Of a stretch of 28,839 bases of DNA, positions 3,131 through 6,940 are shown in pieces. Numbering within the stretch: the stretch's first letter is position 1; each line of letters begins with the position of its first letter. Origin of the DNA: a virus; the IMG/VR virus record IMGVR_UViG_3300025929_000043, positions 1 through 28,839 of that record, one strand, 5' to 3'. Below the pieces are notes generated by a model, which made no database searches, was not told the origin of the DNA, and was given only the letters and a program-made list of their open reading frames with translations. The translations under genes were made by a program, and so were the position numbers.

Positions 3131-3307
3131 TCAAAACTTCCCTATGTATTTAGCTTTAAATTTTCTCAATACGGCCAAAATCTTTTCAGGATCCTGAACA
3201 ATTATTTCCCCACCTGAAACGATAATGCTTGGTCGTTTGATAATGATAAGCTGATCGTTTTGATGGACATACCAAACACCATTAGCAGGGACAACCTTAA
3301 TTTTAAT
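3131..3307 (-). CDS. Small unknown protein, probable ATT start overlapping the resolvase stop
   Basis: 58 residues if started at ATT 3307-3305. The reading frame contains no ATG or GTG upstream of its body. The only ordinary alternative start is TTG at 3409, which would place 102 bp inside the resolvase gene and has no ribosome site (92 residues). By contrast, the ATT sits five bases after a perfect GGGAGGAG, and ATTAA overlaps the resolvase stop TAA like a usual ATGA coupling. The protein is basic and beta-rich (KIKVVPANGVWYVHQ, then LIIIKRPSIIVSGGEIIV), with a basic C-terminus, suggesting a small beta-barrel of the SH3 or OB kind. That fold is a guess. The gene ends directly before the ABA-sandwich gene. 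I recognise no family. Confidence 0.55.
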   Translation of the reverse strand: MKIKVVPANGVWYVHQNDQLIIIKRPSIIVSGGEIIVQDPEKILAVLRKFKAKYIGKF

Positions 3308-3800
3308 AAAATCTCCTCCCGAAATCGGCCAGTAAAAGGGCTTCAGCTCTACCGTCGTCTTTTTTCCTTGTCCATAAATAAGAACTGTTTGGGAATTTTT
3401 TAGATGCAAGAGCTCGAGAAGCGTCCTTATTAGAGCTTAATCCATAGACTCCTTTCCAAACTGCAGGGGGCACTGTAAAAACCGGGCACTTAAAGGCATG
3501 AAGCATCCCTATGACCAAACCCTTTGATACGCCAAAACCAAACATCGATGTGACTCCTTGGCCAGGCATAGCGTGGACGTCTTCAATGATGGCAATCTCC
3601 ACATCCCCGATGATTGCAGATAGCTCAGCGGCCAATATGGACGCGTTTATGATGTTTTTACCACCTGCTCCCTGAGGACTGAGCGGAAAGTCCCAAATCT
3701 TATGGGCCAGATTAGTGGTGGGGTTTAATAGCGCAAGAGCTCCTGATAAACCAGGATCAATTCCTAAGATGAAGGGTTTTTTAAACGGTTTTTGTTCCAT
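3303..3800 (-). CDS. RuvC-like Holliday junction resolvase
   Basis: 165 residues with the RNase H-like resolvase pattern. The first acidic residue is D15 in ILGIDPGLSGA, the second E73 in AIIEDVHAMPGQG, and the third set D148/D149 in KDDGRAEALLLA. The aromatic/glycine stretch SMFGFGVSKG (85-94) is typical of RuvC. Length is close to bacterial RuvC (about 170). It should cut four-way or branched DNA as a dimer with Mg2+, resolving recombination intermediates or debranching DNA before packaging. It is the first gene of the left operon. The ATG has no recognisable ribosome site, and an in-frame TAA lies two codons upstream, so the start is fixed near here. A weak promoter candidate lies 42 bp upstream. 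Confidence 0.92.
   Translation of the reverse strand: MEQKPFKKPFILGIDPGLSGALALLNPTTNLAHKIWDFPLSPQGAGGKNIINASILAAELSAIIGDVEIAIIEDVHAMPGQGVTSMFGFGVSKGLVIGMLHAFKCPVFTVPPAVWKGVYGLSSNKDASRALASKKFPNSSYLWTRKKDDGRAEALLLADFGRRFY
3305..3320 (-). promoter_or_regulatory. Shine-Dalgarno GGGAGGAG with AUU start codon
   Basis: Reading the minus strand, GGGAGGAG (3320-3313) is followed by ATTTT and then ATT (3307-3305). This is among the strongest ribosome sites in the window, yet no ATG, GTG or TTG follows at usable distance in the open frame. AUU initiation is established for infC and a few other bacterial genes. Confidence 0.5.
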
Positions 3801-3841
3801 TGATTAAGATTGAGCATGGAAGTTTGATCGGCGCAAATCGC

Positions 3842-3869
3842 ATAAAAGTGGTCGCGGTTTTTTGGCCAA
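3842..3869 (-). promoter_or_regulatory. Weak sigma70-like promoter candidate for the resolvase operon
   Basis: On the minus strand, TTGGCC (3869-3864) and TTTTAT (3847-3842) are separated by 16 bp, each matching four of six consensus bases. It is placed correctly before the RuvC-like gene. The match is weak and could be chance. Confidence 0.25.
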
Positions 3870-3978
3870 AGCTTGTGTTTGTATGGCCAAAATGAAGCGC
3901 CAAGACTTATTAATTGCACAATGCGAAAAGCTAATTGGAAACAATTGCCCAGAGGGGGGTGCGTCAGGGCATGACCAA

Positions 3979-4130
3979 ATGTCCACTGTTTTTGGAGTGG
4001 GCATCCACAGTGGGCATTTGTAAGTACTTGATATTGTTGGGAGTGGACATCAGTGGGCATTGCAGTGGGCATTGCAAACCAGTAGTGGGCATTACTTTCC
4101 GCACACTAGAAGTGCGGAAGTATGTCCACT
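3979..4130. repeat. Cluster of AGTGGGCAT repeats, iteron- or operator-like
   Basis: Copies of AGTGG(G/A)CAT start at 3996, 4009, 4042, 4052, 4064 and 4084 on the plus strand. Inverted copies ATGTCCACT lie at 3979-3987 and 4122-4130. Three of the steps between starts are 10-13 bp, about one helical turn. The first inverted copy can pair with the copy at 3996 (8-base loop), and the last with the copy at 4084. The cluster sits between a minus-strand operon (resolvase) and the proposed plus-strand RNA, in the largest gap of the window. That position suits a replication origin with iterons or a divergent operator for a phage regulator. No initiator or repressor gene is recognised nearby. Confidence 0.75.
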
Positions 4131-4731
4131 GGCTACTACTTGGATGATTGGAAATTAATTGTGGGTTGGAATTTACGGCTAAATAAAGCCGCCGAGTTTC
4201 GGCGAATTTGGGGTTTTGAAGTTTGAAGGTCTTTGAGGTTTTTAAACTCCACGGCTTTTAGATTTAACGGAGAGTTAAGATAAATGTCGGTGGAATTGAA
4301 AACGCCGAGCCCAATAGATTCTAAATTGGATTTTAGTGGTCTTGTGGGGTTTGAAGGTTTTTGTGAAAAATCGAGTCTCGGGTTTGGCAGTCTCGCCCGA
4401 TCCTCTATACCCTCGCTATGCCTTAGCTCTAGACTGCCTAGTTGAACCGCTAAGGCCATGAGACTTAGGAGAGGAGCGACCGGTCGTGAGACCGATGACT
4501 TAAACTCCCAGGAGCCTCAAGGTGAGGTTTTTCTGATTCAGTGTTGATGTATCACGGTGAGTGAATTTTTCAAGTGTCTTGTGTCAATTTGATCCGCTCT
4601 TGTTTGAGTGAGACCTTTGGTTTAACAAGACCATGAGGCGGTGGAACCTTTTGGGTGTTCAAAAACCCTCCAAGGCCTCATAAGGAAGTGAAACACCCCT
4701 TGGACTCGTGACCCTTGGGGTGTTTTTATTT
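4084..4731 (+). ncRNA. Proposed large structured non-coding RNA
   Basis: This stretch has no ORF with a ribosome site or recognisable product, yet it ends in a good plus-strand terminator. Possible helices: 4084-4092/4122-4130 enclosing 4097-4104/4112-4119; 4176-4180/4187-4191; 4287-4292/4303-4308; 4378-4382/4396-4400; 4386-4393/4431-4438; 4421-4427/4449-4455; 4481-4485/4490-4494 with a GTGA (GNRA) loop; 4515-4519/4523-4527; 4598-4604/4624-4630; 4633-4639/4675-4681 enclosing 4653-4656/4665-4668. The helices at 4378, 4386 and 4421 interlock as two successive pseudoknots. Short helices arise by chance, so the folding is an inference. No clear promoter was found, and the 5' end is arbitrary: it may lie anywhere from 3870 to about 4170. 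It does not match tmRNA, RNase P RNA, group I intron or tRNA signatures I know. Confidence 0.45.
4691..4731 (+). terminator. Intrinsic terminator, possibly bidirectional
   Basis: AAACACCCC (4691-4699) pairs perfectly with GGGGTGTTT (4717-4725) around a 17-base loop and is followed by TTATTT on the plus strand. It would end a plus-strand transcript that covers the geneless region. It also lies directly after the stop of the last gene of the converging small-gene operon, so it may stop that transcript too, although the U-run on that side is short (TTT). Confidence 0.75.
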
Positions 4732-4908
4732 ACCCACTTCTTTTTTAGTCAGCTCCATAAAATATTCCTTAGCATTGACAAAATCGGGGAATACGAGAGT
4801 TTCATTATTGACGACTTCGTACCATGTTCGATTTTCAGTGGTAACTCGGGCTAGCCATGTTTTTCCGTCATCTGATACGGCTAGTGTATCGATTTTTTTA
4901 GATTTCAC
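4726..4908 (-). CDS. Small unknown phage protein
   Basis: 60 residues from a GTG start at 4908. GTGA overlaps the stop of the preceding 40-residue gene and AAGGTG lies just upstream, so translation is coupled. The sequence is soluble and mixed alpha/beta: a lysine-rich start, a DDGKTWLARV strand, an aromatic NRTWYEV strand, and a helical lysine-rich tail. It is the last gene of the small-gene operon; its stop borders the terminator stem. I recognise no family. The WLARV...TWYEVVN pattern resembles a small beta-sheet domain, nothing more. Confidence 0.7.
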   Translation of the reverse strand: MKSKKIDTLAVSDDGKTWLARVTTENRTWYEVVNNETLVFPDFVNAKEYFMELTKKEVGK

Positions 4909-5027
4909 TCGGCACCTTCTTGTTCAATGACTTCGTAGATGTATCCCCATGCCGATTCGAAATCATCGAATTCAATGCCCCCGAAACAGACGTTCGAACA
5001 CCAGTCAATTATGATAAACTTTTTCAC
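4905..5027 (-). CDS. Very small acidic protein, 40 residues
   Basis: Starts at GTG 5027 in a GTGA overlap with the previous gene and ends in another GTGA overlap with the next. It begins KKFIIIDWCSNVCFGG and continues with an acidic, aromatic half (FDDFESAWGYIYEVIEQ). This is a strand-rich start followed by an amphipathic helix, a coherent small domain rather than random translation. Phages often carry tiny proteins starting (K)xIxIDWxSNxxF, from memory of such sequences; their function is unknown. The bases GGTGCCGAGTGAAA at its start are repeated at the start of the next gene. Confidence 0.72.
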   Translation of the reverse strand: MKKFIIIDWCSNVCFGGIEFDDFESAWGYIYEVIEQEGAE

Positions 5028-5314
5028 TCGGCACCGCCCGTTGCTTTGTTAATGGCATTTCTTAAGTCCCTAAGTTGTCCAATTATTTCTAGTCTGCATT
5101 GATAAGGCATTACGGCATCCAGTTTAGCAATTGCATCTGATAAGGCTTTAGATGCCTCTAACAATTCAGGTGCGGCGGCGATAAGTAAAGCTACATCTGA
5201 TTTAGTAGTTTCAACTTTACATTGAGTTTCGTAGCCGTTGCCATTGTAAGTGAAAAAATGAAGTTTAGTCGCTGAATGCCTTCTTACTTCCCAAGGTCCC
5301 TTTGTATGTTTCAT
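5024..5314 (-). CDS. Small phage protein with KHTKGPWEV / LIAAAPELLEA pattern
   Basis: 96 residues. The start at ATG 5314 is fixed by AAAGGAG eight bases upstream; a longer frame back to 5383 lacks a ribosome site and reads through a leader hairpin. The N-terminus MKHTKGPWEVRR and the later VALLIAAAPELLEASKAL are hallmarks of a widespread family of small phage proteins. These have a beta-rich first half, then a helix beginning at the IAAAPELLEAL motif. No function is established that I know of. The C-terminal half (about 60-90) is helical. It is the third gene of the small-gene operon and overlaps the next gene by GTGA. Confidence 0.85.
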   Translation of the reverse strand: MKHTKGPWEVRRHSATKLHFFTYNGNGYETQCKVETTKSDVALLIAAAPELLEASKALSDAIAKLDAVMPYQCRLEIIGQLRDLRNAINKATGGAE

Positions 5315-5322
5315 GTTTTTTT

Positions 5323-5349
5323 CTCCTTTAGACCCGGTTTCAACGGGTC
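5323..5349 (-). promoter_or_regulatory. Stem-loop directly before Shine-Dalgarno, copy 1
   Basis: On the minus strand, GACCCG (5349-5344), loop TTGAAAC, CGGGTC (5336-5331), then TAAAGGAG. Six perfect pairs end one base before the ribosome-site A-run. The layout (stem, TTGAA-containing loop, A-run, GGAG) is shared with two other genes of this operon, with different but fully paired stems. Confidence 0.7.
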
Positions 5350-5383
5350 GGTTTAGTCTCATCAGTACCGGCAACACCGGCAC

Positions 5384-5408
5384 ACTCCCTCTTGATAAGT
5401 GAGGGAGT
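5384..5408. repeat. Perfect inverted repeat between two small genes
   Basis: ACTCCCTC (5384-5391) and GAGGGAGT (5401-5408) pair perfectly around a 9-base loop. Neither side has an immediate U-run, so it is not a standard terminator. On the minus-strand transcript it lies seven bases after the stop of the frameshifted gene and may be an mRNA 3'-end or processing hairpin, or a leaky attenuator. Confidence 0.55.
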
Positions 5409-5414
5409 TTCGAC

Positions 5415-5635
5415 TTAGGCTTTTTTAACGGGCAAACTTTTTTTGAGTATTTCCAGATAAGACTCTAATGACTTCTCCAATTCAAAATACTTCTCGTGGT
5501 GATAGTTTGATTGAGTGTAGAGAACATGTCCGGCGTGTTTAACTATGGTTTGAGAAGTTTTAAAAACCCCTCAATCTCTTTTATTTTGCTTTTGATACCA
5601 TTTACTTGTTCTTTTGTTTGGCTTGACACTCTCAT
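5415..5635 (-). CDS. Small helical protein made by probable -1 frameshift (or a split gene)
   Basis: The first frame starts at ATG 5635, seven bases after GGAG, and runs 30 codons to TAG at 5543. It begins MRVSSQTKEQVNGIKSK. Codons 25-26 lie in T TTA AAA (5564-5558). A -1 shift there reads straight into an open frame ending at TAA 5415, whose product (IVKHAGHVLYTQSN, then helical, lysine-rich) looks coding but has no usable start. The joined protein would be 73 residues, mostly one long helix or coiled coil. Alternatives: a one-base indel in the GGGGTTTTTAAAA run (real mutation or sequencing error), or a 30-residue product only. It is the second gene of the small-gene operon. No family recognised. 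Confidence 0.6.
5558..5564 (-). other. Candidate -1 ribosomal frameshift site U UUA AAA
   Basis: The heptamer TTTAAAA is in the correct phase (X XXY YYZ) with the frame starting at 5635. The zero-frame stop TAG follows about 12 bases later, and the -1 frame stays open for another 47 codons. The heptamer type is established for programmed -1 frameshifting; use here is inferred. Confidence 0.5.
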
Positions 5636-5642
5636 TGTTTCA

Positions 5643-5673
5643 CTCCTTTTTTGGTCTCGGGTTCAATCGAGAC
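5643..5673 (-). promoter_or_regulatory. Stem-loop directly before Shine-Dalgarno, copy 2
   Basis: On the minus strand, GTCTCG (5673-5668), loop ATTGAACC, CGAGAC (5659-5654), then CCAAAAAAGGAG before the ATG at 5635. The loop is identical to copy 3, while the stem differs and stays paired. Confidence 0.75.
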
Positions 5674-5680
5674 GGTTAAA

Positions 5681-5848
5681 TTATAATCCGATTGTCTCCA
5701 GATCTTGAATTGATACGTTTGATTTTTGGTCCATTAAGGTTTTAACTTCTCTAGGACTTATCATACAAGCTCGGGCTATAAAAGCAGTCCAGCCTAGTAT
5801 TCCGAGAATGACTCCTAGACTTATTAATACCTGTATTGTTGTTCTCAT
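5681..5848 (-). CDS. Small single-pass membrane protein
   Basis: 55 residues from ATG 5848, which has GGAG seven bases upstream; the longer frame back to 5938 crosses the promoter and the leader hairpin and is not used. Residues 5-28 (IQVLISLGVILGILGWTAF...) form one hydrophobic membrane segment, followed by a polar 27-residue tail with a lysine/aspartate-rich centre. The arginine at position 2 and the polar tail leave topology open. First gene of the small-gene operon, directly after its promoter. Function unknown; small early membrane proteins of phages often affect the host envelope or exclusion, but nothing here shows it. Confidence 0.75.
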   Translation of the reverse strand: MRTTIQVLISLGVILGILGWTAFIARACMISPREVKTLMDQKSNVSIQDLETIGL

Positions 5849-5855
5849 TGTTTCG

Positions 5856-5884
5856 CTCCTTTTTTCACTCGGGTTCAATCGAGT
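5856..5884 (-). promoter_or_regulatory. Stem-loop directly before Shine-Dalgarno, copy 3
   Basis: On the minus strand, ACTCG (5884-5880), loop ATTGAACC, CGAGT (5871-5867), then GAAAAAAGGAG before the ATG at 5848. It lies in the leader made from the promoter at 5901-5929. Same loop and A-run as copy 2. Confidence 0.75.
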
Positions 5885-5900
5885 TTCGGTTTTTGATCGT

Positions 5901-5929
5901 GTTAAAGTAATTATCGGGCAATGCGTCAA
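5901..5929 (-). promoter_or_regulatory. Sigma70-like promoter of the small-gene operon
   Basis: On the minus strand, TTGACG (5929-5924) and TTTAAC (5906-5901) are separated by 17 bp: five and four consensus matches. The predicted start near 5894 gives a leader of about 45 bases holding stem-loop copy 3 and the ribosome site of the membrane-protein gene. Confidence 0.55.
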
Positions 5930-5938
5930 AAAACTCAA

Positions 5939-6530: not shown

Positions 6531-6556
6531 ACAAAGGCATTCCTAAAAAGACCGGC

Positions 6557-6577
6557 CCGGGGTGGCGGTACCCCCGG
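6557..6577. other. GC-rich hairpin in an otherwise AT-rich gap
   Basis: CCGGGG (6557-6562) pairs with CCCCGG (6572-6577) around a loop containing GGCGGTAC. The sequence CGGTACC recurs at about 6604. No U-run follows on the plus strand, so it is a poor terminator. Its place between the terminase genes makes a packaging-related site conceivable, without further evidence. Confidence 0.4.
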
Positions 6578-6621
6578 AAATAAAACTTCTGCCCATTATT
6601 AGCGGTACCTTTGCAAACAGG

Positions 6622-6730
6622 AATTTTATTTTTTTAAATTAATTAATTTAGTTAACGCAGTATTTAATCTTAATTAATTAAAATTAGTTTTTATTGTTTT
6701 TAATTTTTAAATTAATTCGTTTTTAAATTG
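6622..6730. other. AT-rich island with TTAATTAA-type repeats
   Basis: About 110 bp made almost only of A and T, with several overlapping AATTAATT and TTTTTAAATTAATT stretches. Nothing codes here. The gap 6531-6940 holds, in order, the GC-rich hairpin, this island, and one doubtful 27-codon frame. Such islands can melt easily (origin) or strengthen promoters; which applies cannot be told. Confidence 0.5.
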
Positions 6731-6776
6731 CTAGTTTGTGCTTCCACCAATCCAAATCCCTTGCTACCGATTAAAT

Positions 6777-6860
6777 ATGGCGGAATTTTTGTTTAGAACT
6801 AACCCCATGATTATTGTTTATGCCATCACGCTTGTTTTGGTTTTTTTGGTTAAAGTGTGA
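6777..6860 (+). CDS. Doubtful 27-residue membrane peptide
   Basis: ATG 6777 opens a frame with the hydrophobic stretch PMIIVYAITLVLVFLVKV at its C-terminus, which would make one membrane segment. No ribosome site precedes it, and T-rich DNA often encodes hydrophobic peptides by chance. Listed because it is the only possible gene in this gap. Confidence 0.2.
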   Translation: MAEFLFRTNPMIIVYAITLVLVFLVKV

Positions 6861-6940
6861 AGTGGTTCATAAATTTTATTTTTGCTCTTTTAACTTGGAC
6901 TTTAATTATTTGGTTAATCAAACGATAAAGGGGAATGAAG

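Follow-up and report, generated by a model that had tools for sequence, protein, structure and literature searches.

In cluster A mycobacteriophages (Alma, RedRock, LadyBird and others) the prophage origin region expresses a non-coding RNA that is required for replication, and these RNA-based origins, which adjoin a parABS cassette, have no RepA initiator (PMC7157519). Iteron plasmid origins with an AT-rich element have been reviewed (PMC4980987). Many members of GOLLD exceed 800 nt, and GOLLD and ROOL, which have covariance models of their own, are often found near tRNA genes or islands (PMC12286853).

The window analysed here is the whole stretch of 28,839 nucleotides at positions 1-28,839 of record IMGVR_UViG_3300025929_000043, an incomplete genome. 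It contains a geneless region in which an array of short repeats is adjoined by a compact structured element, called the core below. The likeness to the cluster A mycobacteriophages lies in the temperate phages and in a putative RNA beside a probable origin; unlike those origins, this one has an iteron array. No parABS genes were found among the scanned ORFs of the incomplete window or in the annotation of MW202898, a relative. As in iteron plasmid origins, the short repeats are clustered and occur in both orientations, and the repeats of relatives flank an AT-rich tract, but the AT-rich stretch of the window is weak (best 40 nt, 0.72) and a structured element adjoins the array. In ColE1, RNA I and RNA II are linked to the origin and regulate through a kiss between two RNAs; the core is alike in working principle only, its kiss being made within one strand. 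With GOLLD and ROOL (PMC12286853) the core has in common that it is an RNA-like element of phages or prophages without an assigned function, containing pseudoknots and kissing loops, but it is far smaller (about 145 nt), matches none of their covariance models and lies in a window without a tRNA gene.

The geneless stretch and its repeat array

The stretch 3801-4725 is flanked by a ruvC-like gene (3303-3800, minus) and by a small-gene operon (4726-5938, minus). The ORFs tested in it gave no Pfam or PHROGs match above the curated cut-offs, the one sub-threshold match being attributable to chance. Since none of these ORFs has a credible match, the stretch stays geneless, in agreement with a preliminary description which had stated that about 920 bp carry no believable gene. 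A search for sigma-70-like promoters on both strands of 3780-4780 was also negative, and no tRNA genes were found within the window, the genome being incomplete. A second stretch lacking a long ORF, in part very AT-rich (GC down to 0.25), is located at 6531-6934, where it separates the small terminase gene from the gene that follows. As to the relatives, CI-like repressors are encoded by L011 and L019, and MW202898 (Podoviridae sp. ct8d5349) carries annotated genes for a DNA polymerase, a VapE-type protein and a XerD-like recombinase.

Part of the region that had been proposed as a single structured RNA proved to be an iteron array (Table 1), which the preliminary description had missed. The AGTGGRCAT repeat occurs nine times in the whole window against 0.31 expected, and eight of the nine copies lie inside the array. 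In relatives retrieved via terminase or RuvC, repeats of other sequence are over-represented at the corresponding position (L011, L311, L211, L019 and L315); the excess is marginal in L015, and in L312, L318, L325, L326 and L089 the repeat count was not above that of shuffles, although an AT-rich stretch is present in most of them. The repeats of several relatives sit around AT-rich tracts, which are clear in L011, L311, L211 and L315 (0.93-0.97 over 40 nt). Judged from these sequences, the array is most likely the replication origin of a temperate podophage; it may instead consist of centromere-like sites or operators.

Table 1. Positions and sequences of the features in the geneless region of the window, with the repeats found at the equivalent place in relatives
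Feature	Position	Strand	Sequence and remarks
Iteron array	3979-4130		eight AGTGGRCAT copies in 152 bp; probably a replication origin, or else another array bound by protein
AGTGGRCAT, six copies	3996, 4009, 4042, 4052, 4064, 4084	+	
AGTGGRCAT, two copies	3979-3987, 4122-4130	-	at the array ends
Inverted repeat	4095-4120		CTTTCCGCAC/GTGCGGAAG; lies within the array and separates copies 7 and 8; read from the sequence
G-rich spacer	4136-4375	+	GC skew +0.43
Hairpin c	4378-4400	+	TCGGGT 4378-4383 / GCCCGA 4395-4400; loop carries the 5' arm of helix a
Kissing helix a	4386-4438	+	GGCAGTCT 4386-4393 / AGACTGCC 4431-4438; joins the loops of c and b
Hairpin b	4420-4456	+	GCCTTAGC 4420-4427 / GCTAAGGC 4449-4456
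Loop motif GTTGAAC	4441-4447	+	invariant among the four homologues; 1-3 nt 5' of the 3' arm of b
Helix d	4456-4522	+	CCATGAG 4456-4462 / CTCAAGG 4516-4522; one A-A mismatch
GNRA hairpin	4481-4494	+	CGGTC-GTGA-GACCG; enclosed by helix d
Terminator-like hairpin	4515-4532	+	CCTCA-AGG-TGAGG, then TTTTT; recognised in the sequence, function putative
Intrinsic-terminator-like hairpin	4691-4731	+	AAACACCCC/GGGGTGTTT, 4691-4699/4717-4725, then TTATTT; located where the convergent operon has its stop codon
Repeat of L011	array-equivalent place		TTGCCTAAG
Repeats of L311	array-equivalent place		GTACAAA/CGAGTAC
Repeat of L211	array-equivalent place		GTGGCCA
Repeat of L019	array-equivalent place		ACTAGAA
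Repeat of L315	array-equivalent place		TCAGACA

A kissing-hairpin core and its homologues

The compact core extends from 4378 to 4522. All the pairings named in the preliminary description were present in the sequence: the terminator stem with its TTATTT, the GNRA hairpin, the helices at 4378, 4386 and 4421, and a stem at 4633-4681. The three helices had been described as two chained pseudoknots. They are real, but because each arm of helix a is part of a hairpin loop, one of c and the other of b, they form one intramolecular kissing-hairpin unit and not a chain of two. A helix follows hairpin b in all four homologues, the L011 version being CATGGTC/GACCATG; in the window, this helix d and the terminator-like hairpin at 4515-4532 are mutually exclusive, because the bases of the 3' arm of d are common to both.

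The preliminary description had proposed that related phages be examined for covarying pairs, and such pairs were found. The terminase of L011 is 67% and its RuvC about 53% identical to those of the window. The alignment of the two regions was built from sequence only, with no use of structure, and helices a and b had been named before any homologue was known. In 30 of the 32 cells of helices a and b, window and L011 were paired in the same columns, L011 having CTTAACC/GGTTAAG at helix a and CCTATAC/GTATAGG at helix b. Nine double compensatory changes were counted, a number reached in none of 500 shuffles: both sides were altered in five of eight pairs of helix a and in four of eight pairs of helix b. 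When the columns were slid as a control, the paired fraction dropped to 16-56%. The strings CGATCCTCT and GTTGAACC were conserved and mainly unpaired. Since the similarity in sequence between window and L011 is by itself borderline, the argument rests on the structural agreement.

Two further phages carry the element. A weak covariance-model match (12.1 bits, E 2.2), together with a terminase scan, led to L311, which has hairpin c as TTGAAGCG/CGCTTCAA, the kissing helix as CCGCG/CGCGG and hairpin b as CTATGTCA/TGACATAG, with GTTGAACC immediately 5' of the 3' arm of b. In L211, read as the reverse complement, CGACGCC/GGCGTCG, CTAGGT/GCCTAG, CCCCG/CGGGG and GTTGAAC were found. Helix order, GTTGAAC, spacing and gene position are all like those of the window, and hairpin c has another sequence in L011, L311 and L211 with its topology unchanged. 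L311 and L211 were compared by a descriptor rather than by columns, because MAFFT left the helices of the four cores unaligned. The one descriptor found the element in all four regions, with spacers of 9-19 nt between c' and b, 1-5 nt between a' and GTTGAAC, and 1-3 nt between GTTGAAC and b'. With both strands searched, its scores were reached in 0, 1, 0 and 0 of 5000 dinucleotide shuffles for the window, L011, L311 and L211, respectively, counts that are optimistic because knowledge of the homologues went into the design of the descriptor and into one later relaxation of it. The column test with L011 is free of this after-the-fact shaping.

The element is known from these four lineages only, and in a further 5.7 Mb of sequence the descriptor had about 30 matches, of which many fell into coding DNA. 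These two points, together with the borderline similarity of window and L011, could be explained by random pairings with no conserved fold. The nine double changes in a structure-free alignment and the recurrence at the equivalent gene position in L311 and L211 argue against this explanation, which we consider very improbable. The proposal of a structured element with real pseudoknot pairing, outside the known families, has passed this test of covariation, and the preliminary interpretation as a whole is partly supported. In most relatives bearing an origin-like array no match to the core was found; the core is therefore dispensable for replication in general.

An RNA like GOLLD or ROOL, very large and ornate and occupying the entire geneless region, is favoured by the size of the gap, its strong folding in the window and the phage setting. 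Folding of 4136-4740 on the plus strand gave z = -4.85 (20 shuffles), and 4140-4690 gave z = -2.8 on the plus and -4.3 on the minus strand, whereas equally long coding controls ranged from -0.3 to +1.2. However, conservation was demonstrated for the core of about 145 nt and not for the 5' part or the 3' stem (4535-4690), in place of the roughly 600 nt of structured RNA that had been claimed. Both the window and L011 show better-than-chance folding between iterons and core, but in L311 this part folds no better than shuffles (z +2.7), and no counterpart of the stem at 4633-4681 was found in L011, L311 or L211. The first 330 nt hold the iterons, and the remainder of the region outside the core is iterons and spacer. 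Rfam covariance models, those of GOLLD and ROOL included, gave no match at the gathering threshold, and neither GOLLD nor ROOL was among the weak matches listed; the preliminary description had likewise noted none of their signatures. Size, Rfam and the missing tRNA setting all speak against a GOLLD/ROOL-type RNA, the least credible of the readings considered here. As the 5' fold, the 3' stem and, in most relatives, the core itself are not shared, the element is small, belongs to a sub-group and is not a giant RNA. In this way a vague idea of an ornate RNA gives way to something small and testable: its fold is defined, its loop motif is invariant, and its place by a likely origin is fixed.

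Strand and possible role

The criteria for the strand (G-U pairs, GNRA loops, z-scores) were contradictory, G-U versus A-C evidence being split. We lean slightly to the plus strand, which is plausible from the terminator-like hairpins 3' of the core (4515-4532 and 4691-4731), from a T6 run 3' of the core in L311, and from TTGAACC, a motif that also makes up the loop of the hairpins preceding the small-gene ribosome-binding sites on their mRNA strand. On the minus strand, folding z-scores were slightly better in three of the four cores, L011, L311 and L211 have only about 45-70 nt between the core and the stop codon that ends the convergent small gene, a T7 run (TCCTTTTTTT) follows hairpin c in L311, and a terminator-like site is present in the window at 4205-4189. 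These minus-strand features would suit a structured 3'-UTR of the mRNA of the small-gene operon (5938 to 4726), with a function in stability, processing or termination. The operon also bears a hammerhead-like ribozyme, so that its mRNA may undergo processing at the RNA level. In the window, however, the core and the operon's stop codon are about 270 nt apart with a plus-strand terminator in between, and GTTGAACC reads plus in the core whereas the loops resembling it that precede the small genes belong to the minus-strand mRNA. A 3'-UTR element is a main rival to the explanation preferred below, possible though somewhat unlikely.

The explanation that we tentatively prefer is that the geneless region is an origin module, composed of iterons and an untranslated plus-strand core RNA acting together with the origin. 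The iterons, the geneless stretch, the fold with its covariation and the constant position are observed; origin function, strand and transcription we infer, and the link to replication is taken from the position of the core. Against this explanation stand the negative promoter search, the slightly better folding of the minus strand, the weak AT-rich stretch of the window and the lack of the core in most array-bearing relatives. In the proposed mechanism the array would be the binding site of a putative phage replication initiator, and the core RNA would be transcribed in the plus direction, away from the iterons, ending at the hairpin 4515-4532 or at 4691-4731. Hairpins c and b would be locked via kissing helix a, so as to display GUUGAAC beside the stem of b, where a protein or a partner RNA could recognise it. 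The untranslated RNA might then work with the adjacent origin as a primer, as a transcriptional activator of the origin, or in copy-number control. If so, a single origin would rely on an initiator protein and a structured RNA together, and it would join the few phage origins that are known to use RNA.

The element could also act as DNA, the single strand folding at the opened origin and being bound by primase or by another replication or packaging protein, in the manner of the single-strand initiation sites of some iteron plasmids. It adjoins the iteron array, the conserved helices are almost all Watson-Crick so that either strand can fold, and the relative MW202898 encodes its own DNA polymerase and VapE-type protein. 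But relatives with such genes, MW202898 among them, lack the core, and RNA more typically than DNA combines a loop-loop kissing helix with a conserved single-stranded heptamer; we judge a DNA element improbable.

It is doubtful, though conceivable, that the core represents an undescribed class of origin-linked phage RNAs, characterized by intramolecular kissing hairpins and an invariant GUUGAAC, which controls or primes replication from protein-dependent iteron origins in temperate podophages. The four sequence-diverse homologues are a ready system for compensatory mutation, and the module of repressor genes, iterons, core, small genes and hammerhead-like ribozyme marks a little-studied group of temperate podophages.

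Further searches and other structured elements

No match to the region was obtained by blastn against 50,697 phage records, and a two-sequence covariance model (R1), run on about 2.8 Mb of loci and on 35 whole records, yielded no other strong homologue. Searches with short DNA patterns across viral contigs kept, among the matches listed, only L011 and a near-twin contig (L002/L009), which is 99.99% identical to the window over their overlap and yields no covariation; the other top-ranked contigs were rejected on reading, being coding-like or without the fold. The strict pattern did not occur in the genome contigs, and a terL search there gave two MAGs that were of no help. Three more candidates were discarded: L277, whose relative L275 lacks the motif; L046, of similar topology but built from iteron-like inverted repeats; and a stretch of L015 that partly encodes a small protein and has no core.

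L277 (11190-11760, minus) and L275 (11700-12120, minus) do possess a structured intergenic region (z -4.8 in L277) that is partly conserved, with 84% identity between the two, and unrelated to the core of the window. A short geneless stretch of MW202898 (L089, 16344-16530), 3' of a small-terminase-like gene, has hairpins and a T-rich end and looks from its sequence like another structured RNA.

In the small-gene operon of the window a type II hammerhead-like ribozyme (RF02276) lies upstream of a small gene at 5352-5415 on the minus strand. The match has 26.8 bits, below the gathering score of 37, with E 9e-4 for the 181 bases searched, and activity is doubtful because the expected cleavage-site base appears to be G (GUG). 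Similar type II sequences with a GUC site are found near small genes of the equivalent module in L011 (about 2794-2878, minus), L010 (1328-1391, minus) and L211 (about 5040-5107, plus). Three minus-strand hairpins of the window (5867-5884, 5654-5673 and 5331-5349), each of which directly precedes a ribosome-binding site with its start codon, have the loop ATTGAACC or TTGAAAC, which resembles GTTGAACC of the core. The freshwater-2 motif (RF02980) is weakly matched at 5312-5382.
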